A stretch of DNA of 64,000 bases from Pseudoalteromonas xiamenensis. GTDB lineage: Bacteria; Pseudomonadota; Gammaproteobacteria; Enterobacterales; Alteromonadaceae. The translations under genes and the position numbers were made by a program. The stretch is from assembly GCF_030994125.1 (NCBI RefSeq), contig NZ_CP099917.1:744001-808000 (forward strand). Direction: 5' to 3'. Below the pieces are notes generated by a model. The model searched no databases. It had not been told where the DNA came from and saw only the letters and a program-made list of their open reading frames with translations. Positions 8,054 to 40,795 of this stretch are shown one piece after another (the first letter of the stretch is position 1; the number at the start of each line of letters is the position of its first letter).

Positions 8054-8218
8054 ATGAGTCCAAAAAGCCCTATTCTGAAAGGTCTTCAGGAAGAAATACG
8101 TATGCGTGGTTACAACATTAAAACAGAAAAAACCGACCTATATTGGAATAAGGCATTCATTAACTTTCACCACAAGCGTCACCCTGAGACAATGGGAGCG
8201 GAAAATGTCAGAGCCCTT
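8054..8218 (+). pseudogene. intI: Integron integrase, N-terminal remnant
   Basis: The first ~55 codons match the N-terminus of Vibrio/Alteromonadales integron integrases: LKGLQEEIRMRGYNIKTEKT followed by DLYWNKAFINFHHKRHP and ETMGAENVRAL. This is the SAM-like core-binding domain. Similarity stops near 8218; the reading frame runs on to 8305 with unrelated sequence, and no catalytic domain follows. GGTGCGGAG before ATG 8054 supplies a ribosome site. The orientation, divergent from the leftward cassettes, is canonical for an integron. The missing catalytic half means it cannot recombine. A non-overlapping C-terminal piece of an intI lies at 40336-40795. Confidence 0.85.
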
Positions 8219-8382
8219 TCGATAAACTCAGTGGCATTACTAAAATTGGGTCAACGGAAGCTAAAAAAGTTGGTAAAAATCTTTTGGTTTGTCAGAGTGG
8301 GATAGCCTTCATTGTTTTGACTGTGTGCTACGCGCAAAGCGGTATTGAGGCTAATTCACTTTTTGGCTTGTCGCTTGTGTAG
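8207..8382 (+). pseudogene. Possible 3' remnant of an unknown gene
   Basis: Beginning where integrase similarity stops, another frame stays open to TAG 8382 and reads PFDKLSGITKIGSTEAKKVG and then a hydrophobic stretch LLVCQSGIAFIVLTVCYA. It is followed directly by a terminator hairpin, as the end of a real gene would be. I do not recognise it; it may be the far side of the deletion that removed the rest of intI. Confidence 0.3.
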
Positions 8383-8383
8383 A

Positions 8384-8423
8384 CCATTAAGGGGCGAAGC
8401 CCTTAACTGGCTTTCTTATTTTC
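8384..8423 (+). terminator. Terminator-like hairpin, partial copy of the ssrA terminator
   Basis: TTAAGGG (8387-8393) and CCCTTAA (8400-8406) form a stem followed by a T-rich tail. From 8401 the sequence CCTTAACTGGCTTT plus CTTATTTTCT repeats the right half of the ssrA terminator at 3116-3138 with one mismatch and one extra base. The repeat thus brackets integron relic A. Confidence 0.55.
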
Positions 8424-9253
8424 TGTCTTTAATAACACATTCCTTTGAGCGTATTTTTGAAAATATTGCTCCACAGTTTGTTCTATAAAATACTGATTTT
8501 GGCGAATAGCATAATTGAGGCGGCTAAATTCATCTTTACTCAGAACGTCTGGCCTCAACATATAATGCACAGGATTTTGATGGATAGTGAAGGGAGAAGC
8601 TTTAATTGAGTTTTTATATTCAGAATTGTGACTAATTAAATATAGACCCGAGAGGAAATCTTCAACTAGAAAGTCTGCTCGAGAACGCTTTACAAGCTCA
8701 AATCGCTCCTGTGCTAAATTCAGTTCGACAACACAATCACTGCATAGTCGACGAAAGTGCTGAAATAGCCCCCATAAACACTGCCCCGATTCACCGCAAC
8801 AATCGTATTTCTTAGCGAAGGGTAAATGTTTTGAGGTACAGCTTGAGCGTTCGTTGCAAGCAATTCAACTTTGTCTTTCTTGCCAAACAAGGTCATGGTT
8901 TCTTGCCGGTATGGTAGGCTAAAATCGGAGAAGGAGTCTCTTTGACGCGTATAGGAAGCGGCAAAAAGTACATCCACATTGTGTTTTTGAAATTCTCTAA
9001 TAGCCCTGCTTGATGAAGGGTAACTCACAAAATGCCAACATAAATCTGCGTCTGAGAGCACTTTTTTTAGTACCTCAATTTCCAACCCTTGATACACGCC
9101 ATCTTTAACGTAAGAATATGGAAACCAATTGTCATTAGCATAAATTTTTAACGTCTTTGTGCACGGCTGTGCGTAGCCAATGAAACTCACTATTAAGAAA
9201 AATACAGTAACCAATGTTCTTATTCGGTATCGCTTCATCTTAGACATGTTCAT
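8403..9253 (-). pseudogene. Periplasmic solute-binding protein (SBP_bac_3), frameshifted
   Basis: A secreted type-3 (amino-acid type) solute-binding protein of about 280 residues. After a short lead, MKRYRIRTLVTVFFLIVSF is a signal peptide, then YANDNWFPYSYVKDGVYQGL and EIEVLKKVL give the family's opening motif. The frame breaks near 8765. A one-base shift in a TTT run restores FRRLCSDCVVELNLAQERFE and continues to KTENKKAS and stop 8403-8405. Start choice among ATGs 9238, 9247 and 9253 is not settled by a ribosome site. No permease genes are adjacent, which is usual for such stand-alone binding proteins in Alteromonadales. The break may be a sequencing slip, since the second half is otherwise undamaged. 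Confidence 0.75.
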
Positions 9254-9407
9254 GCTCGTTTCAATTGGTGATATTGTATACCAAATTAATGTGTCCCCAA
9301 TATGACTAAAGTCAAAGAGCCTTAACCGATTAACCTCCAAAATCAGTTTCAATACAAGTCCTTATTATTCGTTGTATTCTCTTGTTTCATTTCATCGGGT
9401 TTTAATA

Positions 9408-9623
9408 TTAATCCATCACGAGTGCGTCTTCCGGTATCGAAAGCTGATTGTTTTTATGAATAAAAATCGAATGATTTGCAGCAAGCGACTGAAGAAGGTC
9501 GTTAAGCTCACGGTGGGTAAGGTCTGATTCAAGTTGGACCGAATCAAGCGGGATAGGTTTACAAGCGTTATTGTTAAATTGGGTCACTAAAATACGGTAT
9601 ATTAACTTTTCTTTACGATTCAT
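9408..9623 (-). CDS. Small hypothetical protein, helix-rich
   Basis: A 71-residue protein starting MNRKEKLIYRILVTQFN. A predicted helical bundle with SVQLESDLTHRELNDLLQSL looks like a small winged-helix or HTH unit, and the C-terminal IHKNNQLSIPED would suit a wing strand. There is no signal peptide. A weak GGGTAG precedes the ATG at 9623. It stands alone between the broken solute-binding protein and the TonB receptor. Family not recognised; a DNA-binding role is only suggested by the pattern. Confidence 0.55.
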   Translation of the reverse strand: MNRKEKLIYRILVTQFNNNACKPIPLDSVQLESDLTHRELNDLLQSLAANHSIFIHKNNQLSIPEDALVMD

Positions 9624-9847
9624 GAGACTACCCGTTTTGCCAGATTATTGGCTAAATTTTAAGACTCAAAAAAACTAGTTCACGATTTTTGGTTAAGCAA
9701 TTTTTAAACGTCTAATTGCGGTAGATAACAGGTTAAGGCTACAGGCGCCAAACAAATTCAGTACATTATTTCGCCTACCTGAACCGGTAAGCTAATTTGA
9801 AACACCGTTCCTTTGGAAAGTAACCATATGATATTAATAGATAATAA

Positions 9848-9871
9848 ATAAACAGGGGGCATCCCCTGTTT
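9848..9871 (-). terminator. Terminator of the TonB receptor gene
   Basis: AAACAGGGG and CCCCTGTTT form a 9-bp stem around GCAT. The minus-strand tail is A/T-rich with T runs. It lies 18 bases past the receptor stop codon. Confidence 0.75.
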
Positions 9872-9888
9872 ATTTAGTTATAGAAGCT

Positions 9889-12324
9889 TTAGAACGCGTA
9901 ACGTACTTGGAGTTTTACATTACGTTCGTTTCCAGGCATGCCGCCTAAAAACATCGCTTTACTGAAATACACTTTGTTGAATAAGTTATTGATGTTCATT
10001 TGCCACTGCCAATTGTTGTGCTCATAGCGTACACCCGCGTCAAAGACGGTGTAACTCGGTACAAACCCATCTGGAATACCGAATGAATCAGAATGCGTAC
10101 TGCGTTTATCCACAAATGACATACCAAGGCTTAGATCAACCGGCGCAGGCAAATCAAAAACATGGCGTGAGTGCGTGAGCCAGCTGCCCACGGTAACATA
10201 CGGCACACCTTTTTGACGAGAATTATAGCTGCTGCTAGTTGGATTTTGCTTATCACGAGCGTCTTGATATACCGCGTTAAAGTTGAATTTCCACTGATCA
10301 CTTAATACCGCATTTAAATCCAGTTCAATGCCTTTGGTTTGTTCTTGGCCATCGTAAAAACTTTTTGGCACTGAAGGCGCAGATACTCCTGCTTCATAAT
10401 CAGGGTTTGCGTACTGCAAATTAGTACGACTACTTTCGAACATGACCACAGACGCAACAACTTGATCTTCAAACCCTTTAAAACGCATACCGATGTCGTT
10501 GCTTACCGATTCGCTATCTTCACGGTCTGCTTCATTGCCAAAAATCTCACCGAGAATACTGTATGCGGTTCTGCCTTTTGAATGGTTGATAAAAGCGGAT
10601 ACATCGTCACTGAATTTGTAGCTGGCACCCAAGTTGTAAGTAATTCCACTGTCAGACGTATCCTGCTCAGGCTTCGGTTCTGCGGCACTTGCACGATATC
10701 GCGCGTCAACACCAAAATGTTGGTAGCTCTGTTTTATACGGTTAAAAGCAAGACCTACTCGGGTGGTGAAGCCGTTTTCAAAGTACGCCACATGTTGTGC
10801 GCCAAGGCCCCATGCAGCAACGGTTTTGTTGTAGTCCGCTGTTTTTAAGGGATCATTGTCTTCAAACGTACTGGTTGCCCAATTTGGATTACGAATATCA
10901 AAAATATACGGCAGCGTACCTTGATAAATCACGTCACCTTGTTTGTTTTTAATTACTTGGTCCGCATCATAAATTGAATACTGTTTGAAGCGAATATCGC
11001 GGTCTTCATAGTTAGCGTTAACCAGAAATTCGTTATTGACATTGCCAATCGAGAAGTCGTAACGTAGATCAGCGAAGTATTGTAGCGATGACTCATTCGC
11101 TTCCACTTTACGGTATTCCTGACGGCGCGCGGCAAAAGGATAAAGTTCACCATCTACAACGAGTGGTGCGCGAGGGTCAGCATTCACCACGCCACCACGT
11201 TGCCAATACACATAGTTGTATGCCCCTGTTTGACGCGCAAAACTAGAATCATAATCGCGATATTGAAGTTGATGGTTCAAAAATAGATGATCGGTTATAT
11301 CAACGGTATGCGTGAGCTTTAAACGTAGCTCTTGCCCTTCATTATCTTTCGCCATCGGGGAAATAATGCCGTTATGGCCGAATTGATAAGGTGTTAAGCC
11401 ATCATTTGTTGCCAATGAATCGGCAAGTTGTTGACGCTGAGTGTCACTTAACATCACGCCTTTGCCTTTGGCATCACTCACCAAATCTTGCCATGTCACT
11501 TGACTTGCAAGCTTCCCGTCTACCGATGCAGAATTGAAAATACGAATTGGATGACCTATCGAGTCTACTGCAATCGCATCATCGATATACGCTGCAGATA
11601 ACAACAAGTTATTGCTTGAGTTCAATACGAATTTCAAACTTGCATAAACTTCATCTCTGTCATTGCTCAGATCGCGATAACCATCACTTCTGGCAGACTT
11701 CACTAAAATACGATAAGCAACGTCATCCGTTAACGCATCGGTTGAGTCCAGCTCAACTGAATAGGTATTCCACTGACCGATCTCGGCTCTTATTGCATGT
11801 TCTGCCTGAAACTTGGGCTTTTTCTCGATTAAATTAATCACACCACCCGCACTGCCCATACCATAAAGACCCGTCGCAGGTCCTTTTAGAACTTCTACCG
11901 ATTCTACGTTCGTCATTGAGCGTGTTGGGTTGAATGTATTGCCAAGGCCTGCCCCGCCATACATACCATCAAACGTATAATTCGCGCCAAGTCCTCGGAT
12001 CACGAGATTATCCCCAATGCCATAGTTGTTGCCCGCTTGTGTTACACCACTAATATTGCGGATGACGTCTTGTAAATCTGAAATTCCCTGCGCTTTAATA
12101 AGGTCACCATCAACAATCACAACCGCCGCAGGCGTTTCCATCAGTGACATGTCTGATTTAGTCGCGAGGCCTGAGTTCATTACCACTTGGTTTTGTTTGG
12201 CATAAACACTGATGACTTCCAATGGTGATTTATCCGTCGTACTGACTTCACCTTTCGATGCTATTGCGTATTGAGATAAGCCGCTACATGCCAGCGCAAG
12301 CAGAGATAAAGGAAACTTTTTCAT
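9889..12324 (-). CDS. TonB-dependent siderophore receptor
   Basis: An 811-residue outer-membrane receptor importing a ferric siderophore using TonB energy. Signal peptide at 1-22 (ending AIAS). A TonB-box-like LEVISVYAK near 35-43 is followed by the plug domain (about 60-170: DGDLIKAQGISDLQDVIRNI, VLKGPATGLYGMGSAGGVIN) and then a 22-strand barrel ending in the typical terminal Phe (KLQVRYAF). Length and plug wording fit the TIGR01783 siderophore class (FhuA/FpvA-like); the ligand cannot be named. ATG 12324 adjoins a Fur box, so iron repression is expected. No siderophore biosynthesis or periplasmic permease genes are adjacent. Confidence 0.92.
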   Translation of the reverse strand: MKKFPLSLLALACSGLSQYAIASKGEVSTTDKSPLEVISVYAKQNQVVMNSGLATKSDMSLMETPAAVVIVDGDLIKAQGISDLQDVIRNISGVTQAGNNYGIGDNLVIRGLGANYTFDGMYGGAGLGNTFNPTRSMTNVESVEVLKGPATGLYGMGSAGGVINLIEKKPKFQAEHAIRAEIGQWNTYSVELDSTDALTDDVAYRILVKSARSDGYRDLSNDRDEVYASLKFVLNSSNNLLLSAAYIDDAIAVDSIGHPIRIFNSASVDGKLASQVTWQDLVSDAKGKGVMLSDTQRQQLADSLATNDGLTPYQFGHNGIISPMAKDNEGQELRLKLTHTVDITDHLFLNHQLQYRDYDSSFARQTGAYNYVYWQRGGVVNADPRAPLVVDGELYPFAARRQEYRKVEANESSLQYFADLRYDFSIGNVNNEFLVNANYEDRDIRFKQYSIYDADQVIKNKQGDVIYQGTLPYIFDIRNPNWATSTFEDNDPLKTADYNKTVAAWGLGAQHVAYFENGFTTRVGLAFNRIKQSYQHFGVDARYRASAAEPKPEQDTSDSGITYNLGASYKFSDDVSAFINHSKGRTAYSILGEIFGNEADREDSESVSNDIGMRFKGFEDQVVASVVMFESSRTNLQYANPDYEAGVSAPSVPKSFYDGQEQTKGIELDLNAVLSDQWKFNFNAVYQDARDKQNPTSSSYNSRQKGVPYVTVGSWLTHSRHVFDLPAPVDLSLGMSFVDKRSTHSDSFGIPDGFVPSYTVFDAGVRYEHNNWQWQMNINNLFNKVYFSKAMFLGGMPGNERNVKLQVRYAF

Positions 12325-12340
12325 GAGAATGATTCTTATT
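12324..12340 (-). promoter_or_regulatory. Fur box at the receptor start
   Basis: TGAGAATGATTCTTATT matches the GATAATGATTATCATT-type Fur consensus at most positions and abuts the ATG. A Fur-Fe(II) repressor bound here would block the receptor gene in iron-rich cells. Confidence 0.75.
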
Positions 12341-12368
12341 AAATGCGAGGAGCGCGCATATTAAATAC

Positions 12369-12384
12369 AAATTATTCTCATTTC
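12369..12384 (-). promoter_or_regulatory. Second Fur-like box
   Basis: AAATTATTCTCATTTC is a second partial match to the Fur consensus, about 45 bases upstream of the receptor ATG and probably over the promoter. Tandem boxes are common at siderophore receptor genes. Confidence 0.6.
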
Positions 12385-12842
12385 AATGCTAGGTACAAAT
12401 AATTTCGTTCCTTTTTTGACTATTTATATTCTTTTTACAGTTCGTCTAATTCTTATTGATTTACGCAACGTTTTTGTTGAGCCTAACGCTTCGTAAAGCG
12501 CTGAATGAGTACAGTTGAGTACATGCCTTATCTGTGTAATTTACTTACCTTGGCTCATGTGAAAAATAATAGGTCTCTTTTGAGTGAACATATTCAACAC
12601 TCGAGAGATTGTTGTAGGGTTAGCTATTCTGTTTATTGCTCAATTTTAAGCATCCGATAAATCCCCCATTACATTCTCTACCGCATCTTTAACTGTCAGT
12701 AACCACCAAACCGATACTTTTGACTGAGTTACCAAAGAAAACCGTGTTAAATTTTAATTAAAAGATTAAAAAACTTCGAATACAACGCTATATTGAGACA
12801 ACGGATCAAGGCGATTGTCGTGCTGTAACTGTAAGGGTTTTT
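12385..12842. other. Intergenic region without a recognisable gene
   Basis: AT-rich divergent spacer between the TonB receptor and the REC-GGDEF gene. It should hold the promoter of the GGDEF gene, but I see no clear -35/-10 pair, stable RNA or repeat. GTAAGGG at 12829-12835 is the ribosome site of the next gene. Confidence 0.6.
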
Positions 12843-13775
12843 GTGTTTAACGATGTAGATGATTTATCTGACTGTAAAGTGCTCATAGTTGAAGACTCGG
12901 TCATCAACCAGAAAATTATTCAAGTTTGCCTCGCTGACTTGTGTGATGTCGCAGTGGTCGCATCGGGTGAGGAAGCGATTGACTATTGCCTTCAATCCTC
13001 ACCAGATTTGATCTTGATGGATTGGATCCTAACGGGTATTACTGGCCTTGAAGCATGTAAACTGTTACAAAGTAAACCCGCAACGGCAAACATTCCAGTA
13101 ATTTTTGTCACCTCAAATGTTGGGGAAAGCCAGCAAGAAGAGTGCTGGGATGCTGGTGCCGTTGATTTCATCGGCAAGCCCATAGTAGCGCGAACGTTGG
13201 TCAATCGCGTTAAAACACATCTAAAATATAAAAAACAAGCGGATTTACTGCGCGAGTATTCCTACGTAGATGGACTGACTGGCGTTTTCAACCGTCGCTA
13301 TTTTTCACAAGAAATGGACAGACACTATCGTCAAGGTCAGCGGGCAAATACGACGTTATCAATGATTATCCTTGACGTAGATAACTTTAAAAAATATAAC
13401 GACCATTACGGCCACTTAAAAGGCGATGATGTGCTGAAGTCGGTCGCAAAAGTATTGAAACACTGCACTCGCAGACCCTTGGATGGCGCATTTCGTTACG
13501 GTGGCGAAGAATTTGCCGTGTTGTTGCCGAACACGCCCAAAGAGGCGGCATTTGAAATAGCGCAGAATATCATTAAAGGAATTCATCAGCTCAGCATCGA
13601 GCACGCCCAATCACTGTTCAATGTAGTGACAGCCAGTGCTGGTGTATCTTCGACTTGCACGGCACCCGATCCGGCTGAACTCATTAAACAAGCTGATACT
13701 GCGCTTTATGGAGCCAAAAATAATGGACGTAATCGAGTTTTTGAATTTGAACCTGAACACGAAAAATCCATTTAA
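12843..13775 (+). CDS. Response regulator with diguanylate cyclase domain (REC-GGDEF)
   Basis: A 310-residue two-domain protein that should make cyclic di-GMP on phosphorylation. REC spans about 12-128 with acidic pair ED at 17-18, phospho-acceptor Asp60 in ILMDW and Lys in FIGKPI. GGDEF spans about 140-305 with active site RYGGEEF and an RPLD inhibitory site five residues before it, so product inhibition is likely intact. Start is GTG 12843, chosen because GTAAGGG lies 8 bases upstream and the REC domain begins directly after it. No sensor kinase is adjacent; the architecture resembles PleD/WspR-type regulators. Confidence 0.93.
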   Translation: MFNDVDDLSDCKVLIVEDSVINQKIIQVCLADLCDVAVVASGEEAIDYCLQSSPDLILMDWILTGITGLEACKLLQSKPATANIPVIFVTSNVGESQQEECWDAGAVDFIGKPIVARTLVNRVKTHLKYKKQADLLREYSYVDGLTGVFNRRYFSQEMDRHYRQGQRANTTLSMIILDVDNFKKYNDHYGHLKGDDVLKSVAKVLKHCTRRPLDGAFRYGGEEFAVLLPNTPKEAAFEIAQNIIKGIHQLSIEHAQSLFNVVTASAGVSSTCTAPDPAELIKQADTALYGAKNNGRNRVFEFEPEHEKSI

Positions 13776-13841
13776 GACGAATTTATTGCATCATCGAGTA
13801 AGTAGCGTATGCTTAACGGTGTGCGCACTGTTGGAGTTACC

Positions 13842-14579
13842 ATGAAATTAGCCTTAGTTGGCATCGCATTGCTAATTTCGTTTTCAAGTTTTGCCAATAC
13901 GCCCAAATTTAAAATCTGTTTTGAGCGTTGGTGGCCGTATAGCTTTGTTAGTAAAGAAAGCATCCCCAAAGGGATTGAGGTTGAGCTCATTCAACTTGCT
14001 ACACAACCAAAAGGTATTGCTGTCGAATTTCAAGAACTTCCATACCAACGTTGTTTAGATTCCGTACGGCATGGTACGCATGATTTTACCCTGCATGTAG
14101 ACCGTACAGATAATTTAACACTGCTCGATAAATCGTTTACCGACTGGTCCTTATCGTTAGCCGTTAAACAAGGTCGTTTTACCCAGTTGTCGCAATTAAG
14201 CACATCGTCTCCACGTATCATGCTCGCTATGGAATACCCTTATCCTGATGAGGTCTACAAACGACTGAAAGACATGAATGCCGTCATTATTGAGCGCTCT
14301 TTCTATGAACAAAGCGATGAAGAAGCGATAACCTTTTTCGATGTTTTGGAAAACGAACGGATAGACGCCATTATTGTAGATAGACAGTGGGCCTCAAAAA
14401 TGGTCCACCAATATCGACTTCCGGTGACGATTTTACCCGAAGCGTTTCACAACGAACCCCAATTCATCGGGTTTAGAGAAGACCGTAAAGAACAAGCCGC
14501 ACTTTTGCATCGGCTTTTGATTGCTATCCCAGCGTCAGTGAAAGAACAAATTCATGCAAAATACCTGAACGGGCACTAG
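13842..14579 (+). CDS. Periplasmic solute-binding-like protein (SBP_bac_3)
   Basis: A 245-residue secreted protein. ATG 13842 follows TTGGAG and opens a signal peptide (MKLALVGIALLISFSSFANT), which is why I reject an in-frame ATG at 13809. The mature part has the type-3 solute-binding pattern: ICFERWWPYSFVSKESIPKG, IEVELIQLA, and DFTLHVDRTDN. It is short and lacks neighbouring permease genes, so it may be a sensory or orphan binding protein rather than part of an ABC importer. It lies 66 bases downstream of the REC-GGDEF gene on the same strand and may be co-transcribed. Confidence 0.8.
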   Translation: MKLALVGIALLISFSSFANTPKFKICFERWWPYSFVSKESIPKGIEVELIQLATQPKGIAVEFQELPYQRCLDSVRHGTHDFTLHVDRTDNLTLLDKSFTDWSLSLAVKQGRFTQLSQLSTSSPRIMLAMEYPYPDEVYKRLKDMNAVIIERSFYEQSDEEAITFFDVLENERIDAIIVDRQWASKMVHQYRLPVTILPEAFHNEPQFIGFREDRKEQAALLHRLLIAIPASVKEQIHAKYLNGH

Positions 14580-14894
14580 TCTATCGTCTGTTCGAGTTTG
14601 GTATTTTGTCATCCTGAGACCATCCAGATAACCGCAATTAAAGTGTGAGTGATACGTCAAAATACCTTACATAACATCAACAAATGCATTACAGTCTATT
14701 TATTCGACAATTCACCTGCTTAATACAAAAAAGAAATTGACGGGATTCGAATTACTGTTTATTTTCGCCCCGATGTTTTAAGAAGGGTCATACTAGTTTC
14801 TGGTCAACCCAATATTAAGCAGATACAAGCACGTTGATGAACGTTTGCGAATTTAGCCTTCTTATTCAAACTAGCAAATATTGGGACAATTTGA
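14580..14894. other. Intergenic region without a recognisable gene
   Basis: A 315-base gap before the NhaC-type gene. It is AT-rich with scattered stops in all frames. I see no RNA gene, no obvious terminator and no convincing operator; it presumably contains the antiporter promoter. Confidence 0.55.
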
Positions 14895-33403: not shown

Positions 33404-33460
33404 TTAATACCGTTTACAAAGCGCCGGATTTAGGCGTTTATGTAAGAAAACACTCAGTAT

Positions 33461-33500
33461 TTAAAACGGGGAGAATATCGATTCTACCCCGTTTTAATTT
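33461..33500 (+). terminator. Terminator of the Bat operon
   Basis: AAAACGGGG and CCCCGTTTT form a 9-bp stem with an AT-rich 15-base loop, followed by AATTTTG. It separates batD from the ECF sigma gene. Confidence 0.8.
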
Positions 33501-33593
33501 TGTAGGCCGCGCTTTAAAATAGGGTTTACAGACTACTCAAAGCAAACAGAAAGTTTGTTGAAATAAAAATTTAAAAACGAAGGTCTAACTAGT

Positions 33594-34115
33594 ATGACCA
33601 CAAAACAACAACGCTATGAGCAAATGGTAAGAACCTATCATACAGAGTTGTATCGTTTTGCTTACTGGCTGTGTGGCGATGCAACAATTGCCGAAGATTT
33701 GGTACAAGAAACCTTTCTTCGTGCGTGGCGCTCGCTGGATAGCTTGCAAGATGAAAATGCAACAAAGCCTTGGTTAATTACCATTTTACGTCGTGAGAAC
33801 GCGCGACGATTTGAACGTAAACAATTTGATTATGCTGATGTGGAACAAGATACGCTGGAAGACAAAGAGCGTTTCACCCTCGATGACGAGATGGAACAAA
33901 CGGTCATTCAACGCCATATCAACAATTTGGAACCAGAATACCGTGAACCTCTGATTATGCAGGTGGTTATGGGATTTTCTGGAGATGAAATCGCAGACAT
34001 GTTAGAGCTGAATAAAAACACGGTGATGACGAGACTTTACCGTGCCAGAAACCAGCTCAAAGAGGCCTTAATGAACGTAAAAACACCAGTAAGAGGAGCG
34101 CAATCAGATGGATGA
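33594..34115 (+). CDS. ECF-family RNA polymerase sigma factor
   Basis: A 173-residue sigma factor with only regions 2 and 4. Region 2 (about 10-75) has FAYWLCGDATIAEDLVQETF and LRAWRSLDSL; region 4 (about 110-165) has the helix-turn-helix YREPLIMQVVMGFSGDEIAD and NTVMTRLYRAR. CGAAGG precedes ATG 33594. Its last 8 bases overlap the DUF3379 gene, its likely anti-sigma factor, so the two are translationally coupled and probably auto-regulated. The inducing signal and target promoters are not evident here. Confidence 0.94.
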   Translation: MTTKQQRYEQMVRTYHTELYRFAYWLCGDATIAEDLVQETFLRAWRSLDSLQDENATKPWLITILRRENARRFERKQFDYADVEQDTLEDKERFTLDDEMEQTVIQRHINNLEPEYREPLIMQVVMGFSGDEIADMLELNKNTVMTRLYRARNQLKEALMNVKTPVRGAQSDG

Positions 34116-34851
34116 ACTTGAATTTCGTCGCCGTCTTTATGCCGATCCTTTTGACAAGGACGTTCACGAAATGGCGAAAAATAACCCGGAACTGCAAGCT
34201 CAGCTTGACGACTTTCTTTCATTTGAAGCCGCAATGAAAGATGCCATGGACATCCCAGTTCCTGAGGGGCTTGCCGAGCGCATTATTGCAAAAACTCAGG
34301 AAGCAAAAACTCAGGAAGCACAAACTTCAGAGTCCATCACACCACCACCGCACCAGCCTGTTACTTGGTATAAACGTCATGCAGGTCCATTTGCAATGGC
34401 GGCATCTATTTTCGTTGCGACCACCGTGTATTTCCTGTCGGCAACCCCGACCGCGGTACATGCCAACGAATATGCGTTTGAACACGTCTACCATGAAATG
34501 GGCGCGTTTAAACTGACCGATGCTGTTTCACTGCAAAAAGTGAACGAAAAGCTCGCAACATTCGGAGCTAAGCTGGACGATTTACCGGGCAAAGTGACCT
34601 ACGCAACATTTTGTAATTATCGTGGTAAAAAAAGTTTGCACATGATTTACCAAAGCGAAGATGGTCCAGTAACGGTATTCGTTGTGCCTCGTGAAGACAG
34701 CTTTAGAGAGTCAGGTCGTAGTTTCGTTGACGATCGCTTTAGTGGTCTTATTAACCCACTGGATAAAGCGGACGTAATCTTAGTCGCGAATTTAAATACG
34801 CCAATTCAACAATTTGCAGCGGATTTTACCAGCCAAATGGAATGGTTATAG
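34108..34851 (+). CDS. DUF3379 protein, probable anti-sigma factor
   Basis: A 247-residue single-pass membrane protein of the DUF3379 family, regularly encoded after this class of ECF sigma. The cytoplasmic N-terminus (about 1-85) opens with ELEFRRRLYADPFDKD. A short tandem coding repeat (KTQEAKTQEAQTSE, about 61-74) precedes one transmembrane helix (about 95-112, FAMAASIFVATTVYFLSA). The periplasmic part contains CNYRGKKSLHMIYQ. It likely holds the sigma at the membrane until a signal arrives; this role is inferred from operon context. Confidence 0.85.
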   Translation: MDELEFRRRLYADPFDKDVHEMAKNNPELQAQLDDFLSFEAAMKDAMDIPVPEGLAERIIAKTQEAKTQEAQTSESITPPPHQPVTWYKRHAGPFAMAASIFVATTVYFLSATPTAVHANEYAFEHVYHEMGAFKLTDAVSLQKVNEKLATFGAKLDDLPGKVTYATFCNYRGKKSLHMIYQSEDGPVTVFVVPREDSFRESGRSFVDDRFSGLINPLDKADVILVANLNTPIQQFAADFTSQMEWL

Positions 34852-34881
34852 CGCTACGCAGAGAACATTTTTGATGTAATG

Positions 34882-34915
34882 AATCCAAAGGCTCGCAAAA
34901 GTCTTTGGATTTCGT
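34882..34915 (+). terminator. Terminator after the sigma/anti-sigma operon
   Basis: AATCCAAAG and CTTTGGATT make a 9-bp stem with a 12-base loop and a short TT tail. The weak T run makes this a probable rather than certain terminator. Confidence 0.6.
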
Positions 34916-35007
34916 CGCATAACCCCCATATTTAATCCTAAAGATCTATGTATCGCGTACCCAATTTAATTAGAATTGGCGTCAATATTTTTTAATCGAG
35001 GAAAGGT

Positions 35008-35874
35008 ATGAAACAACTCATTACCATGTTGTCTTTAGTGACATTTTTATTTGCGACCAGCTTTGATGCGTTTGCAGCAAAAAAGTTTGGCAGCAAAAAG
35101 AAATCAGGAAAGACGCAACAAACCCAAACAGCTCAACCAAAGCAGCAAGTAGACACTAATACTCTGCCTGCGAAAACTGCCCCTAAGTCGTCGAAAAAAG
35201 GCATTATGGCCGGTGTACTTGGTGGCTTGCTAGCTGGTGGTTTAATTGCTGCAATGCTTGGCGATGACTTTGAAGGCTTTCAATGGCTTGAAATGATTCT
35301 ATTTGCTGTGCTTGCTTTTGTTATATTCAAAGTCGTGAAAGGTATGATGGCACGTAGGCAACAGCCAGCATACGCAGGTGCAAGCTCAAGTCCGTATTCA
35401 ACTGCGCCACAGCAACCTTATCAGCAACCTGCGCAACCTCAGGCTTTTACGCCTGCGTCTTCGGGATTTGGTTCAAGCACCTCCGATGTACCGTTCAATT
35501 TACCGCGTGACTTTGACTTGAACGGGTTTCTACGTGGTGCTGAAAACCACTATCGTACGGTGCAAAAAGCTTGGAACGAAAATGATTTCGCAACGGTTAG
35601 CGAATACCTAAGCCCTGAACTCATTGAAGAGTTCAAGGCCGAACGTGCTGAGCAAGGTCAAGTATCTAACGAAACGTTATTCCTAAGTGCAGAAGCGGTA
35701 CGTGCAGATGTGAGCCCAGTTGTTTGGGAAATCAGTGTGATGTTCCGTGGTAAGTACCGTGACAACATTGAAAATGTTGAAGAACCTATCCATGAAGTAT
35801 GGCACCTTGAACGCAAAACCGACGCGAACGCACCTTGGCTTATTGTTGGGGTTGAAAACTTAGCCGCAGAGTAA
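35008..35874 (+). CDS. Tim44-like domain membrane protein
   Basis: A 288-residue protein. GAGGAAAGG precedes ATG 35008. A signal-like N-terminus (MKQLITMLSLVTFLFATSFD) is followed by a Lys/Gln-rich segment, two membrane helices (about 66-85 GIMAGVLGGLLAGGLIAAM and 95-112), and a Gln/Pro/Ser/Ala-rich linker. The C-terminal Tim44-like domain spans about 165-285 with FLRGAENHYRTVQKAWNEND and EVWHLERKTDANAPWLIVGV. Bacterial Tim44-like proteins are of uncertain function; the domain resembles mitochondrial import Tim44 and MRPL45. It is probably a single transcription unit. Confidence 0.87.
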   Translation: MKQLITMLSLVTFLFATSFDAFAAKKFGSKKKSGKTQQTQTAQPKQQVDTNTLPAKTAPKSSKKGIMAGVLGGLLAGGLIAAMLGDDFEGFQWLEMILFAVLAFVIFKVVKGMMARRQQPAYAGASSSPYSTAPQQPYQQPAQPQAFTPASSGFGSSTSDVPFNLPRDFDLNGFLRGAENHYRTVQKAWNENDFATVSEYLSPELIEEFKAERAEQGQVSNETLFLSAEAVRADVSPVVWEISVMFRGKYRDNIENVEEPIHEVWHLERKTDANAPWLIVGVENLAAE

Positions 35875-35897
35875 GTTCCCAATACACTATTTAAACC

Positions 35898-35925
35898 AAA
35901 GGCAACCTTGTGTTGCCTTTGTTAT
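35898..35925 (+). terminator. Terminator after the Tim44-like gene
   Basis: AAAGGCAAC and GTTGCCTTT form a 9-bp stem around CTTGT, followed by GTTATTT. Confidence 0.8.
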
Positions 35926-36025
35926 TTCAATCATCCCATTTCAATATAAACGAATATTATCAAACACTTTTTCAATGATTCACGTATCATGCGGTCATAT
36001 AAAATATATCGGTAAGGATAGCGCT

Positions 36026-36712
36026 ATGGTATTACGCCACCTATTGTCTCCCGTTGCATTATTGGCATCATGTTTGGTATGCACATCGTCTTTCGCGTCT
36101 AATTTGTTTCCTGAGATAACTCAACCAATCGACGCCAATGGTCGCTTCGTATTCTACTCCCATGGTTACATCGTTGAGGGTGATAATCCGACCCCTATCG
36201 AGACTAAGCATGGTTTTGGAAAATACGATTTCCCTGCGATTAAAGAAGCTCTCGCTGATGACTCCTACCACCTTATGGCACACCACCGCCCTAAAAACAC
36301 CGATCCTTTTGCCTATGCACAAGCGTTCAGTGAGCGCATTCGCGAACTGGTTAAGCTAGGCGTATCACCTTCGCATATTACATTAGTAGGTTTTTCACGA
36401 GGTTCTTTTATTACAGGGCTAACGTCCAATTTACTTGCTGATATAGGCGTTAATACCGTGCTGTTAGCAGGATGTGGACGCTTGATTGCCAAACAGCATC
36501 AAGACGTTCAAGTTTATGGTCATGTGTTGTCTGTCTACGAGAAGTCAGACCGTTCCGGTACTTGTGATGCCTTGAAAGCGAAAAGCCCACATACACGTTC
36601 CTTTGAAGAATTAGCCATCAATACAGGTTTAAGTCACGGGGCTTTTTATACACCCAACCCTGTTTGGGTCGCACCAGTTAAAGCTTGGATTTTGAAAAAG
36701 CAGGCACTGTGA
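36026..36712 (+). CDS. Secreted alpha/beta-hydrolase-like protein
   Basis: A 228-residue protein with a signal peptide (about 1-24, ending SSFAS). The nucleophile-elbow pattern GFSRGSF near 122-128 sits in ITLVGFSRGSFITGLTSNLL, and an early FVFYSHGYIVEGDNPTP would form the oxyanion strand. A later GLSHGAFY supplies a candidate catalytic His. Substrate unknown. TAAGGA precedes ATG 36026; an in-frame ATG 17 codons earlier lacks a ribosome site and would extend before the signal peptide. It marks the boundary with integron relic B, which starts about 140 bases downstream. Confidence 0.75.
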   Translation: MVLRHLLSPVALLASCLVCTSSFASNLFPEITQPIDANGRFVFYSHGYIVEGDNPTPIETKHGFGKYDFPAIKEALADDSYHLMAHHRPKNTDPFAYAQAFSERIRELVKLGVSPSHITLVGFSRGSFITGLTSNLLADIGVNTVLLAGCGRLIAKQHQDVQVYGHVLSVYEKSDRSGTCDALKAKSPHTRSFEELAINTGLSHGAFYTPNPVWVAPVKAWILKKQAL

Positions 36713-36852
36713 CCGGTGAAACTTACTGTGTAGTTGTTCAAAGCTGAACTCGCGTTTAAGTTAATCTGCACGATGTAAGACTTGCCCCTAAAGAACTACC
36801 ACCAAGGAATTAGATTTTTGATTAGCTCTTCGTCTTTCACCAAACTTTCCTG

Positions 36853-36972
36853 AGAATATAACACCTCAAACACAGGCGCGTAAGTTGGCGCAGTTTTTGC
36901 TGCATTTGGTTTTTTGCAAAAACTGAGACAACCGTTATGTGTCCTGTGATTTGACTTGTTATATTCGTATTA
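36853..36972 (-). repeat. attC recombination site at the distal end of relic B
   Basis: On the minus strand the site runs from ATATAACAAGTCAAATCACA to TGTTTGAGGTGTTATATTC. Cores ATAACAA and GTTATAT fit the consensus, and arms CAGTTTTTGC and GCAAAAACTG pair perfectly in the middle. It follows the last cassette gene. Confidence 0.8.
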
Positions 36973-36996
36973 TAAAGCTCTAAAGCTCTAAAGCTC
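36973..36996 (+). repeat. Triplicate 8-mer TAAAGCTC
   Basis: Three perfect tandem copies of TAAAGCTC straddle the stop codon of the next lipoprotein gene, so the protein end is itself inside the repeat. Confidence 0.85.
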
Positions 36997-37628
36997 GATA
37001 GCTTCAGGTTCAAAAGCAATTCTTTCAGAGTAGGTCTCTTTACCCATGATATAGCCATGGATTGATCTGAAAATTAATATTCCATTTTTATCGTAGATTC
37101 GTTTCATGGTTTTCTTTCTCAAACCAACGCCATTAAATTTGGTAATCCAAACTCCGTTATCAAAAACCGTTTCAATTTCGGTTTTACCACTGTACGTTTC
37201 GTATTGACATTTACCGATTACAAATTCACATTCGTTGAAATGTGACATATATGAATCGAAATTCCCATTTTCTGTTAGTTTTAAAAACATAACTTTATTA
37301 TCAAGTTTCATCTCAACACCAGTAGGTTGGCGCTTATCGTTAAAATGTCTGAAGTAATGGGTCGAATTTTCGGTTTTATATAATACATAATATTCTCTTT
37401 CAATATCTACCTCCCCCTTGAGGTAGTATTGCTTAACTAAGTAGCCGAACTTTTCTTTTAACTTAGGAACACTAGTAGAGATAGTGTCGAATTCACTTGG
37501 TTGAAGAATATTATCAGCATTTTCTTCTAATACTTTTTTCATTGCCTCTGCTTGGTTGTATAGGCTAACGGAACAACCACTAACAGAAAAAAGAAAAACA
37601 TAAATAATACTACGTTGATTATTTGCAT
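36988..37628 (-). pseudogene. Cassette lipoprotein, frameshifted in the signal peptide
   Basis: ATG 37628, with AAAGG upstream, opens MQIINVVLFMFFF and then leaves frame in a run of T (minus strand, near 37585-37591). The adjoining frame gives SVSGCSVSLYNQ, a lipobox, and continues to stop 36988, so one base corrects a lipoprotein of about 213 residues. The mature part is mixed helix and strand with no family I recognise; NECEFVIGKCQYETY holds two cysteines. The uncorrected frame would have to start inside the attC. Length is otherwise complete, so I suspect a homopolymer slip. Confidence 0.6.
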
Positions 37629-37641
37629 ATACTACCTTTGA

Positions 37642-37712
37642 ATATAACGCCGTTGTAATCGGCAAAATTTGTTGGCTAAAATGTGAGGCGAAGCAGAACC
37701 TAACCAACGGTT
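37642..37712 (-). repeat. attC recombination site
   Basis: On the minus strand the site runs from TAACCGTTGGTTAGGTTC to ACAACGGCGTTATAT. The stem words TGGTTAGGTT, TTAGCCAACA and AAATTTTGCC recur at the other relic B sites. Outer core GTTATAT fits GTTRRRY. Confidence 0.75.
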
Positions 37713-38254
37713 ACGAGTCCTGCTTCTGTAGCTTTTTATTTGCCGTCTTACCCAAGTAGCTTTTTATACCATCTTGGGCTTGTTTATACCTTAAGTTAAT
37801 TAAAGTCATTGCTACTTGTCCGACATCTCCGTACAGATTGTCAGCGTATTCATGTAAATTTAAAGTTGGATCGTAATTTTTAGAAGCAATAAACTCATCT
37901 ATTTGTTGCTCCCGAGATGGAGCATGCTCAGGTTCTTTAATATATAAAAATTCTCGCCATGTTCTTGTTGCTTCTCGTTATTACATGATTGACAATCATG
38001 GAACAACATTGTCCATAAATGTAGACCTAAAAAAGATTTATTCATTGATATAAGATTATCTTGAGATAACGTCTTTCGAGCAATCGAAATACCATAGAAA
38101 CAACATTTATGATTAAAAAATCTAATAACTCATCTTTTTGGCCACCTATGGATCAAAGGGTTCTAATCCACGAGCATCATCATAATACTTGCCTACTTCT
38201 TGAAAAAAATATTCTGATATCGCTATTTGAAATATCAGATTTACGTCGAGCCAT
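37711..38254 (-). pseudogene. HNH endonuclease-like cassette gene, decayed
   Basis: Pieces in all three minus frames line up to one HNH-type protein. They read MARRKSDISNSDIRIFF, then QEVGKYYDDARGLEPFDP, a TAG, KKDELLDF, FNHKCCFYGISI, DNLISMNKSFLGLHLW, CQSCNNEKQQEHG, then EFLYIKEPEHAPSREQQIDE to a stop at 37711. At least four frame breaks and one nonsense codon are needed. The expected DHLIPMN histidine has become DNLISMN. The CxxC pairs of the zinc-binding scaffold are partly retained. Some breaks lie in homopolymers, but the stop codon and lost catalytic His argue for real decay. Confidence 0.65.
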
Positions 38255-38269
38255 CATTCCTCTTCAGGC

Positions 38270-38358
38270 ATATAACGCCCTGTTAATGGAAAAAATTGAA
38301 TAAGCTAAAATAGAGCGAAGCGACGAGCTTATTTAATTTTGTCCTCGTTTAGCGCATT
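38270..38358 (-). repeat. attC recombination site
   Basis: On the minus strand the site runs from GCGCTAAACGAGGACAAAAT to ATTAACAGGGCGTTATATG. Arms AAATAAGCTCGTC and TTTTAGCTTATT give the stem. Cores GCTAAAC and GTTATAT fit the consensus. Confidence 0.82.
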
Positions 38359-38367
38359 ATTAACTCT

Positions 38368-38931
38368 CTATTGCACTTTAAAGTGCCTAGAGCCTTTAAC
38401 TTTTAACATACTCTCATTCATCAGTTGTTTTTCGATATTAATGTTTTCGGGCAACCCTTTCTGTTTTGCAAGATTTATATCTCGCTCAAATTTATCTATG
38501 ACTTGGAGCATTCCGCTTCCACCAACAGGCTCAGTCAATTCACCCAAATATGTAGCTTCATTCTTTTTTACTTCAAAGCTGTATGGTTCAAAATCTTCAT
38601 AGTGAAAAGTATGAGCACCTTGAATTTGTTCATATTTTGTAATCAAATACTTGCCAGCTTTTAGTTGGTGTAGCTCTACTCTACCGTTATAACTTGCCTC
38701 ATCAAAATCCCTTTCAGAGCGACCCCATGATGCATCTTTACGATAATAAAACCTACCCGACTCTCCTTTATCATTTTCATAGTTCACAACATAGTCACCT
38801 GCAAAGTTGTGGTTTTTTATATAAAAAGACATGATAGCAAAGCCAGAGTCATCGCCTTGGTATTGAGTATTCAACGTTACGCAACCTGACAATAGGAACA
38901 TAGTAAATATTGAAATTATAAACTTTTTCAT
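38368..38931 (-). CDS. Cassette-encoded lipoprotein
   Basis: A 187-residue lipoprotein with signal MKKFIISIFTMFLLSGC, where LSGC is the lipobox (Cys17). The mature domain is beta-rich (FAGDYVVNYENDKGESGRFY, GRVELHQLKAGKYLITKYE), resembling small extracytoplasmic domains of unknown function, and ends in a charged helix. GGAAAAAA-type purine-rich sequence precedes ATG 38931. It is intact and flanked by attC sites on both sides, a complete single-gene cassette. No specific family recognised. Confidence 0.78.
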   Translation of the reverse strand: MKKFIISIFTMFLLSGCVTLNTQYQGDDSGFAIMSFYIKNHNFAGDYVVNYENDKGESGRFYYRKDASWGRSERDFDEASYNGRVELHQLKAGKYLITKYEQIQGAHTFHYEDFEPYSFEVKKNEATYLGELTEPVGGSGMLQVIDKFERDINLAKQKGLPENINIEKQLMNESMLKVKGSRHFKVQ

Positions 38932-38964
38932 TTTTTTCCTGATAGTTTTACGAATCTAAAAAGA

Positions 38965-39065
38965 GAGTTAACTCCCTGTTAATAGGCAAAATTTAGTTAG
39001 CTAAAATTCGCGATGAAGGAGCAAAAGCCAACTGCATTTTATCCTTGTTAAACAGTTTGTTATGT
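38965..39065 (-). repeat. attC recombination site
   Basis: On the minus strand the site runs from ACATAACAAACTGTTTAACA to ATTAACAGGGAGTTAACTC. Stem words AGTTGGCTTTTGCTCC and TTTTAGCTAACT pair in part. Cores ATAACAA and GTTAACT fit the consensus. Confidence 0.84.
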
Positions 39066-39281
39066 GTAATTTTTAATAGAATTTTTGTCTAGTTTTAATC
39101 CGTGTGCAGTTCTATCCGCAACGTAGAATGCTATTTTACGTAAATGTGCAAATGTAGGATCGCTATCTTCAATTTCTCTTACAGCTAAATGACCAAAGTT
39201 AAGTGTGTGCAATTTAGCATGCTCGTTATTTCTCCCTTCGAAGAAGTCCACCGAAAACTGAAGTTGACGCAAAAGTGCCAA
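39060..39281 (-). CDS. Small cassette ORF, probably 5'-truncated
   Basis: The frame ends FAHLRKIAFYVADRTAHGLK plus a short tail and reads back through GRNNEHAKLHTLNFGHLAVR into sequence that belongs to the preceding attC (39250-39333). The natural start is therefore unclear and the gene has probably lost its 5' end. The protein part is helical and could be a small accessory or immunity-type protein, but I do not recognise it. Confidence that it is translated is low. Confidence 0.4.
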   Translation of the reverse strand: MALLRQLQFSVDFFEGRNNEHAKLHTLNFGHLAVREIEDSDPTFAHLRKIAFYVADRTAHGLKLDKNSIKNYT

Positions 39282-39333
39282 GCGTTGTGAATCCCGCCTT
39301 AATTGCTTGTTCGTTACCAGATCAATGAACTTG
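39250..39333 (-). repeat. attC recombination site, VCR-like, probably truncated
   Basis: On the minus strand GTAACGAACAAGCAATTAAG then GGATTCACAACGCTTGGCAC resembles the left half of the VCR-like site at 4102-4228 (GATTCGCAACGCGTGGCA). A right-hand core is not clear because the sequence runs into the small ORF. Confidence 0.55.
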
Positions 39334-39334
39334 A

Positions 39335-39604
39335 TTAGTAGTGTTCACGACACGAAATTATCGTTAGAGCTTGATCATCGACTGCGTAAACAAGCCTATT
39401 AGTATCATCAATACGACGAGACCAAAAACAAGATAAGTTTTCTTTTTATGGCTCTGGTTTACCGATGCCCTCAAATGGAGAGCACTTAACGTCATTGATG
39501 AGTCGATTGATTCGTTTGAGTGTTTTCTTGTCTTGAGTTTGCCAATACAGGTAGTCATCCCTAGCGTCTGCAATCCACGACAGTAAACGTTGACTACTAC
39601 ACAT
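39335..39604 (-). pseudogene. yoeB: YoeB-type toxin with premature stop
   Basis: YoeB is a ribosome-dependent mRNA endonuclease of type II toxin-antitoxin modules. From ATG 39604, which overlaps the yefM end, the frame reads SQRLLSWIADARDDYLYWQT, QDKKTLKRINRLINDVK, FEGIGKPEP, then TAA at 39446-39448 in place of the conserved Leu codon. After it, in the same frame, follow KENLSCFWSRRIDDTNRLVY, AVDDQALTIISC and REHY to stop 39335. Catalytic Glu (FEG), Arg (SRR) and C-terminal His (EHY) are all still encoded. One T-to-A change from TTA would explain the break, so toxin inactivation looks recent. Confidence 0.85.
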
Positions 39605-39851
39605 CAACTAACTCCCGTGCCGTTGTTTTGCCAGCACGGTAATGTTCAATCGAACGATTTAGGTGTTCAGCGTTTTGAGGTGAACGTAGTAAGTGAGCTG
39701 TCTCCATAAGGCTATTGTAATAGTCTAAAGACATAACCACTGCATCTTCAGAATCACGGCGTGTAATATCAGTTGTATTAGCATCATTAACTACACCGTC
39801 CAAAACAGCTGTGAGACCATTTCTAGCTTCAATAAAAGATACAATTCTCAT
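39597..39851 (-). CDS. yefM: YefM-type antitoxin (Phd/YefM family)
   Basis: An 84-residue antitoxin and autorepressor that neutralises YoeB. MRIVSFIEARNGLTAVLDGV is the N-terminal DNA-binding/dimer domain, TTDITRRDSEDAVVMSLDYY the core, and HLNRSIEHYRAGKTTAREL the toxin-binding tail. ATG 39851 is the family start; an upstream in-frame start is unsupported. The stop overlaps the yoeB start. With yoeB broken the antitoxin is probably an orphan, which could still act as repressor or anti-addiction factor against related modules. Confidence 0.92.
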   Translation of the reverse strand: MRIVSFIEARNGLTAVLDGVVNDANTTDITRRDSEDAVVMSLDYYNSLMETAHLLRSPQNAEHLNRSIEHYRAGKTTARELVDV

Positions 39852-39860
39852 AAAAATCTC

Positions 39861-39911
39861 CACATGTACCTTTAATGGAACAAGTATAGTCGCCACCACT
39901 TTACATGTACA
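39861..39911 (-). promoter_or_regulatory. Putative YefM operator
   Basis: A TGTACA hexamer at 39906-39911 and a near copy (ACATGTACC) at 39862-39870 flank the expected promoter. E. coli YefM-YoeB binds operator palindromes with TGTACA cores, so these are reasonable binding sites. Toxin-antitoxin cassettes are known to carry their own promoter. Confidence 0.55.
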
Positions 39912-39939
39912 GTAAACTGAACAGATGATATTAATAAGG

Positions 39940-40031
39940 CAACTAACACTTTGCTAATTGGCTACCGCTGCTTAGGCAGTTCAGACCACGCTGTTTGTGG
40001 CCGGAACGAAAAATTAAGCAACTTATTAGCT
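39940..40031 (-). repeat. attC recombination site
   Basis: On the minus strand the site runs from AGCTAATAAGTTGCTTAATT to AGCAAAGTGTTAGTTGCC. GTTAGTT is the right core. GGCAGTT and AACTGCC and the neighbouring words give inner arms. It separates yefM from the cassette nearest the integrase relic. Confidence 0.72.
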
Positions 40032-40334
40032 GCCAACCTTATTCACCTGCAGTGTCAGTTTTTGAGCGCCAATCTCGATTCTTACTTCCTTGCCGTAGGC
40101 AACAGTGAATGAAGGATTTATTGAGCTATCACCAACAGTAATATCAGCAACCATACTTGCTGTTTCATCTTGGTTTGGTTTAACAGTGAGGCCATCGCTA
40201 AAGTCATTACCCATATTGATTGACGCCATTTTATCTGCCTCAACCACCATGGTTGGAGATGCAACCAGCTTGCCTTGGGAGTATACGGATGTAGGTACTT
40301 GGTAAATATCAGCCGCGAAGCATAGCGCCGACGC
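40026..40334 (-). pseudogene. Secreted-protein cassette gene cut at its 5' end by the intI relic
   Basis: The frame encodes a small beta-rich mature protein: IYQVPTSVYSQGKLVASPTM, VVEADKMASINMGNDF, then VADITVGDSS and VRIEIGAQKLTLQVNKVGS. The preceding KILASALCFAAD looks like the end of a signal peptide. Further upstream the open frame (to 40403) lies antisense to recognisable integrase codons, so the natural start has been lost or replaced at the junction near 40325-40336. Family not recognised. Confidence 0.5.
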
Positions 40335-40335
40335 T

Positions 40336-40795
40336 AGTATTTTGCCTAAGTCGCTGGCGCAAGCCATTTCTAACCAAATAGACAAAGTAAAAACGATGCA
40401 CAATAAAGACTTGAATGAAGGCTATGGATTACGTCACGTCCCCCAGCACGGATACGTAAATACGGGAATGCGATTCAAGACCTTTCGTGGCAATTTCTTT
40501 TTCCGTCAACAATTCGCTGTATTCACCCTTATGATGAATATAGTTGTCGGCATCATATCCATGAGACAGCATTTCGAAAGCAACTTAGAAAAGCGTTTGT
40601 TAGTGCAGGTATCGGCAAACGAGTTAAAGCACATACATTTAGACATTCTTTTGCCACCAACTACTTAGAAGTGGTGCAGACATACGGACAGTTCAGGAGT
40701 TCTTCGGCCACACTGATTTAAAAACAACGGAAATATATACACACGTAATCGGTTCTCGGTTCAATCAAACGGTCAGCCCCGTAGACCGACTGTAA
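40336..40795 (+). pseudogene. intI: Integron integrase, C-terminal remnant
   Basis: The tyrosine-recombinase catalytic half of an IntI. It begins LPKSLAQAISNQIDKVKTMH and NKDLNEGYG. A frameshift near 40430 leads to PPARIRKYGNAIQDLSWQFL, FPST and the RHHIHETAF box, then [15 protein letters not shown] second frameshift near 40675 leads to [20 protein letters not shown] and IYTHV, ending SPVDRL and TAA 40793-40795. The RHH, HxxR, GH and Tyr catalytic positions are readable; the N-terminal half and first catalytic Arg are absent. Orientation relative to the cassettes is canonical, but attI is missing. Confidence 0.9.

Follow-up and report, generated by a model that had tools for sequence, protein, structure and literature searches.

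Do two broken pieces of an integron integrase, lying about 32 kb apart in one bacterial genome, come from one integron or from two, and by what route did an integron reach such a place? The stretch of DNA analysed here, hereafter the window, comprises 64,000 nucleotides of Pseudoalteromonas xiamenensis (contig NZ_CP099917.1, positions 744,001 to 808,000); the genome amounts to 4.6 Mb on two contigs, C1 and C2, with the window at C1:744001-808000. An initial annotation, made from the sequence alone, had described two pieces of the integrase IntI in the window, each with leftward-reading cassettes and attC sites on its left, and we confirm this arrangement. Both pieces were recovered in a whole-genome search for the integrase family and are therefore not chance matches. 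We propose that the first of the two arrays is a decayed, non-autonomous Tn7-like unit with an integron as its cargo, and that the second integrase relic is unrelated to it and belongs to another integrase lineage, a reading to which we give a probability of a little over four in five.

A Shewanella-type integrase relic beside attI

The first integrase fragment (piece 1) falls within an open reading frame (ORF), 8054-8305, that matches integron-integrase models (NF011946 positions 16-64, E 4.9e-9; TIGR02249, E 2.2e-8). Its start at 8054 on the plus strand had been read correctly in the initial annotation, but not its extent: instead of about 55 residues reaching to 8218, alignment to an intact relative of 319 aa (locus L046) gives intI homology that ends at codon 50, at 8203. 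The DNA from 8203 to 8274 begins with the last bases of the intI stop codon and continues for about 70 bp into what lies downstream of it, and the join marks an internal deletion of about 808 bp. Lineage placement was by identity ranking against 45 full-length IntI proteins from fetched loci. The 55-aa translation of piece 1 is 78% identical to L046, 76% to L047 and 75% to IntI of Shewanella plasmids and phage, as against 42% to the lineage C protein of genome G080. Judged by this ranking, piece 1 is of lineage A, a Shewanella-type, SonIntIA-like integrase.

An attI adjoins the relic, and the cassettes are joined at the attI core. In a comparison by eye, this attI is one base off the 28-nt site printed in PMC9892861. 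With at least two attC sites and no functional intI nearby, the first array is a cluster of attC sites lacking integron-integrases (CALIN); it nevertheless keeps a true attI and an intI relic, and it therefore arose by intI loss. Genome G028 holds an 85% copy of 7298-7761, in which similarity ends no more than 6 bp from the attI junction even with the query extended to 9000, and genome G066 holds an 84% DNA copy of 3459-4114, in the distal cassette gene. These cassettes therefore travel.

A Tn7-like end bounds the first array

Tn7-type ends are known by a set of hallmarks: repeats that are spaced on one side and in tandem on the other, termini of the form TGT...ACA, and 5-bp duplications. The first array begins at 3203, 125 bp beyond ssrA, with a left end that is 91.8% identical over 171 bp to that of a Pseudoalteromonas unit flanked on each side by GTTAT (locus L288), and 80% identical over 172 bp to that of the S. 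decolorationis plasmid pNi1-3. Repeats at offsets +8, +74 and +129 of the window left end score 17, 16 and 17 of 20, where shuffled sequence gives 0.11 per 200 bp. The same three offsets recur in the left ends of pNi1-3, of the Pseudoalteromonas units L288 and L293, of the qnrS2 mobile insertion cassette (mic; L297) and of a nested unit on an S. khirikhana plasmid; the outer left end on the latter plasmid, in a tns-bearing region, has its repeats at +8, +75 and +129. At the right ends of these relatives the repeat stands in tandem at +8, +28 and +48, with exceptions in pNi1-3 (two copies only), L297 (+8, +29 and +49, the first poor) and L293 (four copies). The neighbouring ssrA was considered as an integrase attachment site and rejected, its last 23 bp (with up to three mismatches) being found only once in the window.

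Target duplications are visible in the relatives. On pNi1-3, TGTGGGAGAGGAATAAAG and its inverted counterpart enclose attC-like sites, attI and an intact intI, and AATCG flanks the whole on either side. A scan of 33 loci, chosen for their attI or end matches, yielded six end pairs with identical flanking 5-mers in five of them (L243, L288, L293, the nested unit of L295, and L297 twice); only L243, which is pNi1-3, encloses an integron with intI. A pair was counted if both ends scored at least 23 of 27, which left out weaker pairs at L292 and across host genes of the window. The end reference set included L243, L288, L297 and L239, making the scores circular there but not the 5-mers. As a control, fifteen shuffled sequences produced one pair at threshold 15 and six single ends scoring at least 18. 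The left end is found on 220/72,556 plasmid records and in 10/107 genomes of the genus, this one included. The S. khirikhana region has ends of the same layout and encodes TnsA, TnsC, TniQ, TnsD and TnsE by Pfam. The window unit itself carries no tns genes among its scanned ORFs of at least 80 aa in 3203-8274 (six cassette genes and the intI stub; Pfam).

In the mechanism that we propose, 3203 to about 8274 holds the remains of a unit that would have run from the left end through the cassette array, attI and intI to the right end. The unit would lack a transposase, and a TnsABC-type transposase made elsewhere would recognise its repeat-bearing TGT...ACA ends and insert it with a 5-bp duplication; we infer both the transposition of the window copy itself and the transposase responsible. 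Such transposition could explain how the lineage A integron came to occupy a number of sites on the two chromosomes and on plasmids. Within the unit, intI would be dispensable and repeatedly deleted, while attI and the array stay.

Several further elements with related sequences were observed. At L297:573-2943, the qnrS2 mic has these Tn7-like ends and is nested in a second unit with a 5-bp duplication of its own. L295:11030-15294 is a unit flanked by GCACA on both sides that sits between two parts of apparently one split tnsD/tniQ gene. At L238:3775-4040, a left-end-like stretch runs straight into a right-end-like one with no cargo in between, a miniature and degenerate member of this family. 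At C2:634.1-635.6 kb of this genome (L287:12120-13720), a right end and a damaged left end accompany two cassettes and an attI-like junction, the last two partly recognised by eye; the unit gave no match to IntI, and its attI sequence is a different one. TnsA-like genes at C1:3308064 and C1:2593461 possibly belong to other Tn7-like elements.

Lineage A platforms across the genome and the genus

Five lineage A attI sites occur in the genome, at four loci and on both contigs, and intI is broken at all of them; relics of two other lineages are present besides. Used as a DNA query, the window platform found these copies in five places (C1:112-113 kb; C1:752 kb, in the window; C2:280 kb; C1:3382 kb; and C1:3388 kb), and matches in 12/108 genomes of the genus including this one. 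A 29-base attI pattern, allowing up to three mismatches, detected 20 sites in 11/108 genomes, again with this one included, and the reversed control detected none. Among the matches listed, 2/20 attI sites adjoin a full-length, stop-free lineage A intI (G018:C1:1661079 and G045:C1:1141957), and at a third (G034:C14) the intI likewise scores above the cut-off but lacks its last part. The initial annotation had named an intact intI with its own attI elsewhere in this genome as evidence against a split platform; a near-complete lineage A integron with its own attI is present at C1:112-115 kb, but its intI, although of complete length, is put out of frame by the loss of one base near codon 118. 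Across these copies, intI has been lost repeatedly, whereas attI persists.

One intI deletion joint is common to the window, to C2:280 kb and to a P. shioyasakiensis megaplasmid. By blastn, these three have the platform in common (523-565 bp) and no cassette, and C2:280 kb and the megaplasmid have an additional 68-bp stretch in common. Lineage A arrays also have a common far-end sequence. A shared right boundary about 95 bp past intI in all copies was considered and rejected, weak similarity further on blurring it.

The lineage A loci could instead derive from separate horizontal acquisitions of whole integrons, by transformation or on plasmids, followed by parallel decay, rather than from transposition within this lineage. 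In favour of such a history, lineage A occurs on Shewanella plasmids and in a prophage, recognisable ends are missing at several loci, and the C1:112 kb copy at least looks imported, since the N-terminal part of its IntI is 97.4% identical to that of a Shewanella plasmid and 95-96% to Pseudoalteromonas IntI. The common deletion joint speaks against it, as the window and C2:280 kb must have been copied after intI loss, although the presence of the same joint in P. shioyasakiensis leaves room for transfer between species; moreover, the window copy begins at a clear transposon end. We would put separate acquisition somewhat below even odds, and it is compatible with transposition.

Spread as a Tn7-like unit is the reading that we prefer, and a number of observations weigh against it. 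No right end of the window unit was found beyond 8274, and hence no 5-bp target duplication is visible. Convincing TGT...ACA ends were not found at C2:280 kb, at C1:3382/3388 kb or around the second array of the window, and C1:112 kb has only a degenerate right end. No ends of this family lie within about 10 kb of the two TnsA-like genes of the genome (one lone repeat matches at 15 of 20), and no transposase source was found in this genome. We assume the S. khirikhana region to be an autonomous transposon; its outer ends have differing flanking 5-mers, and no Pfam match was found for its transposase-sized protein. Conservation of attI is not clearly better in the orphan copies than in the intact ones, and selection on orphan attI was rejected as an explanation, intact copies conserving attI about equally. 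Finally, a genome scan with our attC model (R1, below) did not pick up the intI-less array at C2:634 kb and is incomplete.

Two side observations concern attI copies in other loci. L012:2380-8323 contains tandem attI copies, 97.6% identical over 292 bp, with cassettes between them; the copies are also separated by two larger genes, by eye resembling LysR and a monooxygenase, which are bounded by near-identical repeats of about 60 bp. In L049, L051 and L052, several attI copies stop at similar sequence (by eye), possibly an insertion sequence (IS) end deleting into intI.

Possible cassette exchange at an orphan attI

A platform that we refer to as site 2 offers a view of what may happen at an attI after intI is gone. 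It occurs as a single platform in the three species G072, G076 and G018, where intI is cut off at the same base and runs on into the same DNA. The right flanks are 92-96% identical over kilobases and the platform itself 96.7-96.8%; the left flanks stop at the same core site, with 96% identity over 6 kb in two species and 89 bp kept in the third. Between this core site and attI, the cassettes are unrelated in 3/3 species and have only attC-like similarity. This suggests that the cassettes of site 2 were exchanged after intI loss, with integrase supplied in trans. We infer the supply in trans: an orphan attI could still gain or lose cassettes given a suitable integrase made elsewhere in the cell, and in the P. 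xiamenensis genome the likely past source would be the C1:112 kb integron, before its one-base deletion.

Alternatively, arrays at orphan attI sites may be frozen, and the differing cassettes of site 2 may have come about when a truncated intI allele recombined into strains that had other arrays. Site 2 could indeed stem from introgression of such an allele, which is possible among these species, and the distribution of integrases also counts against exchange in trans: an intact lineage A intI is present elsewhere in G018, that of G072 is broken, and G076 has none among the matches listed. In Xanthomonas, according to PMC12444791, strains sharing an intI lesion usually have the same array, a pattern with which site 2 contrasts. 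Platform identity near that of the flanks, however, gives no sign of recent import, and unrelated cassettes in every one of the three species beside a left flank that ends at one and the same core site are at odds with frozen relics. We regard frozen arrays as less likely than not, but as a serious possibility.

Two comparisons around site 2 were set aside. The C1:3382 kb locus was rejected as its orthologue, having only short array-end sequence in common with it and differing flanking genes. No clean empty site was obtained either: in G084 the platform is missing together with about 240 bp of either flank, and in G045 about 6 kb of other DNA is present.

Exchange in trans and transposition of non-autonomous units may be combined into a distributed system, in which many integrase-less attI docking sites of this lineage travel through the genome and to plasmids on non-autonomous Tn7-like units, all of them served by one integrase in trans and moved by a borrowed transposase. 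We offer this only tentatively, at odds well short of even.

A second relic of another lineage

Piece 2, on the right of the second array, had been recognized as a C-terminal part of IntI starting near residue 175 (40336-40795), and this holds with small adjustments, the match running from about residue 170 over 40339-40796. It is split over at least two reading frames with stops, and both attI and the N-terminal half are missing; like piece 1, reduced to codons 1-50, it holds no intact intI, as had been proposed. Its DNA is 77% identical to the intact intI of G080. At the protein level it is closest to lineage C (G080/L190), with 73% and 76% for its two frames (range 73-77%), versus 51-55% to the lineage A protein L046, and these identities place piece 2 in lineage C, distinct from piece 1. 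Full-length IntI proteins of lineages A and C are 46% identical. The genome also retains the N-terminal part of a third IntI lineage, a relic at C2:441 kb that is 97% identical to L161 over 89 aa.

An attI was not recognised at the second array. The host gene dnaE2 adjoins the relic, and the initial annotation had suggested comparing the synteny of the ssrA and dnaE2 loci among related strains. A dnaE2 gene was found in 27/60 genomes searched, this genome and 26 relatives; the 24 fetched dnaE2 loci of relatives (reach about 1.5 kb past the gene) yielded no piece 2 DNA and no IntI, and no dnaE2, imuA or imuB gene was found in 13 loci carrying a lineage C-like intI.

The suggestion that the two pieces are the ends of a single platform split by rearrangement, which their common orientation, their non-overlapping IntI parts and the arrays beside both had favoured, fails because they come from different IntI lineages, the outcome that the initial annotation had itself set as refuting it, each putting its own lineage first among the 45 proteins, and because piece 1 is followed by DNA from beyond its own intI end, through an internal deletion also seen at C2:280 kb, and has further copies elsewhere in the genome; we consider it next to impossible. 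Of the two models that had been put forward, that of two separate dead integrons is the right one, and on sequence grounds the window contains the remains of two unrelated dead integrons.

Features of the window and detection of attC sites

The attC sites were sought with R1, a covariance model built from seven attC sites, all of this genome. R1 replaced two earlier scanners, a first that was too strict and a second that was too loose (13 sites in five real loci versus 9 in five shuffled). In the window, R1 gives four plus-strand matches at E 2.4e-4 or better, two of which are seeds, and 7 in all at E up to 1. Across the genome, where 150/1229 candidates were scored, it gives 15 matches (seven being the seeds), 14 of them in six arrays adjoining intI relics. 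One R1 match, at C2:648 kb (L202:8242-8369), is isolated, and IntI was not found in the surrounding 17 kb. Feature coordinates are collected in Table 1.

Table 1. Features of the two arrays and their neighbours, in window coordinates.
Feature	Position	Strand	Basis
ssrA (tmRNA), neighbour of the first unit	2722..3078	+	ARAGORN, Rfam RF00023
Tn7-like left end, TGT terminus; 20-bp repeats at 3210-3229, 3276-3295, 3331-3350	3203..3372	+	Similarity and repeat offsets
Distal attC, partial	3388..3452		38-47-bp matches to other arrays; 104/200 shuffles fold as well or better
Cassette gene, M23 peptidase domain	3454..4134	-	PF01551, E 2.2e-20
attC	4102..4227	+	R1 35.2 bits; 18/200 shuffles fold as well or better
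Cassette gene, tetratricopeptide repeat (TPR) similarity under Pfam cut-off	4222..5829	-	Pfam
attC	5842..5902		Second scanner; fold z -2.6, 2/200 shuffles as good or better
Cassette gene without Pfam match	5830..6498	-	Pfam
attC, by eye	6513..6571		Fold z -3.0, 0/200 shuffles as good or better
Cassette gene, DUF4145	6540..7250	-	Pfam
attC, by eye, weak fold	7255..7312		24/200 shuffles fold as well or better
First cassette gene	7264..7590	-	ORF; copy in G028
Shewanella-type attI and conserved leader; crossover about 7755/7756	7756..7905		attI comparison by eye
intI relic, codons 1-50, lineage A (SonIntIA-like) by ranking	8054..8203	+	Model matches, alignment, IntI ranking
DNA from just past intI stop, joined by internal deletion of about 808 bp	8203..8274	+	Alignment to intact relative
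attC	36856..36964		Second scanner
attC	37642..37741	+	R1 24.6 bits
attC, R1 seed site	38270..38365	+	R1 79.3 bits
attC, R1 seed site	38966..39065	+	R1 85.9 bits
Cassette gene, Phd/YefM antitoxin	39597..39899	-	PF02604, E 3.6e-17
intI relic, C-terminal part, lineage C by identity, frameshifted	40339..40796	+	77% DNA identity to G080 intI
dnaE2, host gene adjoining the second relic	40886..43957	-	NF004225, 1298 bits

Relation to known systems

Tn7 with its class 2 integron is an integron with a damaged intI on a Tn7-type transposon. It carries its own tnsABCDE, and its integrase is of a lineage other than that of the window; unlike Tn7, the window unit has no tns genes that we found. Integron parts are also moved by transposase-less ends in the integron mobilisation unit and in class 1 integrons flanked by miniature inverted-repeat transposable elements (MITEs). 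Those systems involve class 1 parts and other end families, and their flanks are formed by a pair of miniature elements, not by the left and right ends of one unit.

The SonIntIA-type Shewanella integrons (S. oneidensis MR-1, S. algae, pNi1-3 and prophage M16-3) have the same IntI lineage, by similarity to the pNi1-3 and M16-3 proteins, and the same attI, whereas intI is deleted in the window. The pNi1-3 integron has been called empty (In0), with an IS nearby, in the accessible part of PMC9229058, where Tn7 has 0 occurrences and Tn7-like ends go unmentioned. Our analysis departs from the In0 description in finding a 5-bp duplication and attC-like sites, of which two are weak (R1 21.2 and 14.3 bits) and the others recognized by eye.

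The qnrS2 mic of Aeromonas plasmids belongs to the same end family, with the same repeat layout; it likewise has no transposase, and the mic itself shows a 5-bp duplication. Its own cargo is one gene, whereas that of the window unit is an integron. PMC2600179 describes it as 1,375 bp long with 22-bp inverted repeats and a 5-bp duplication, and Tn7 has 0 occurrences in that paper and in PMC5444012. Partial attI sites have been reported in class 1 and 2 cassettes (PMC12901181). Judging by titles and abstract openings, with few subscription journals covered, we found none among the publications listed that describes units of this kind.

Significance for integron biology

Two open questions are touched by this locus: by what means a 'sedentary' chromosomal integron gains mobility, and what gives rise to integrase-less cassette clusters. 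It suggests one concrete route, in which a chromosomal-type integron becomes the cargo of a non-autonomous Tn7-like unit with ends like those of the qnrS2 mic. Orthologous platforms with the same dead intI but wholly different cassettes, as at site 2, provide a natural test of exchange in trans. If the distributed system outlined above is real, intI loss would be the normal state of the element and not its death, and many CALINs would be docking sites. To our knowledge, standard integron searches do not model attI outside the mobile classes. Such searches would probably call these loci plain CALINs, and units of this kind may therefore be overlooked.

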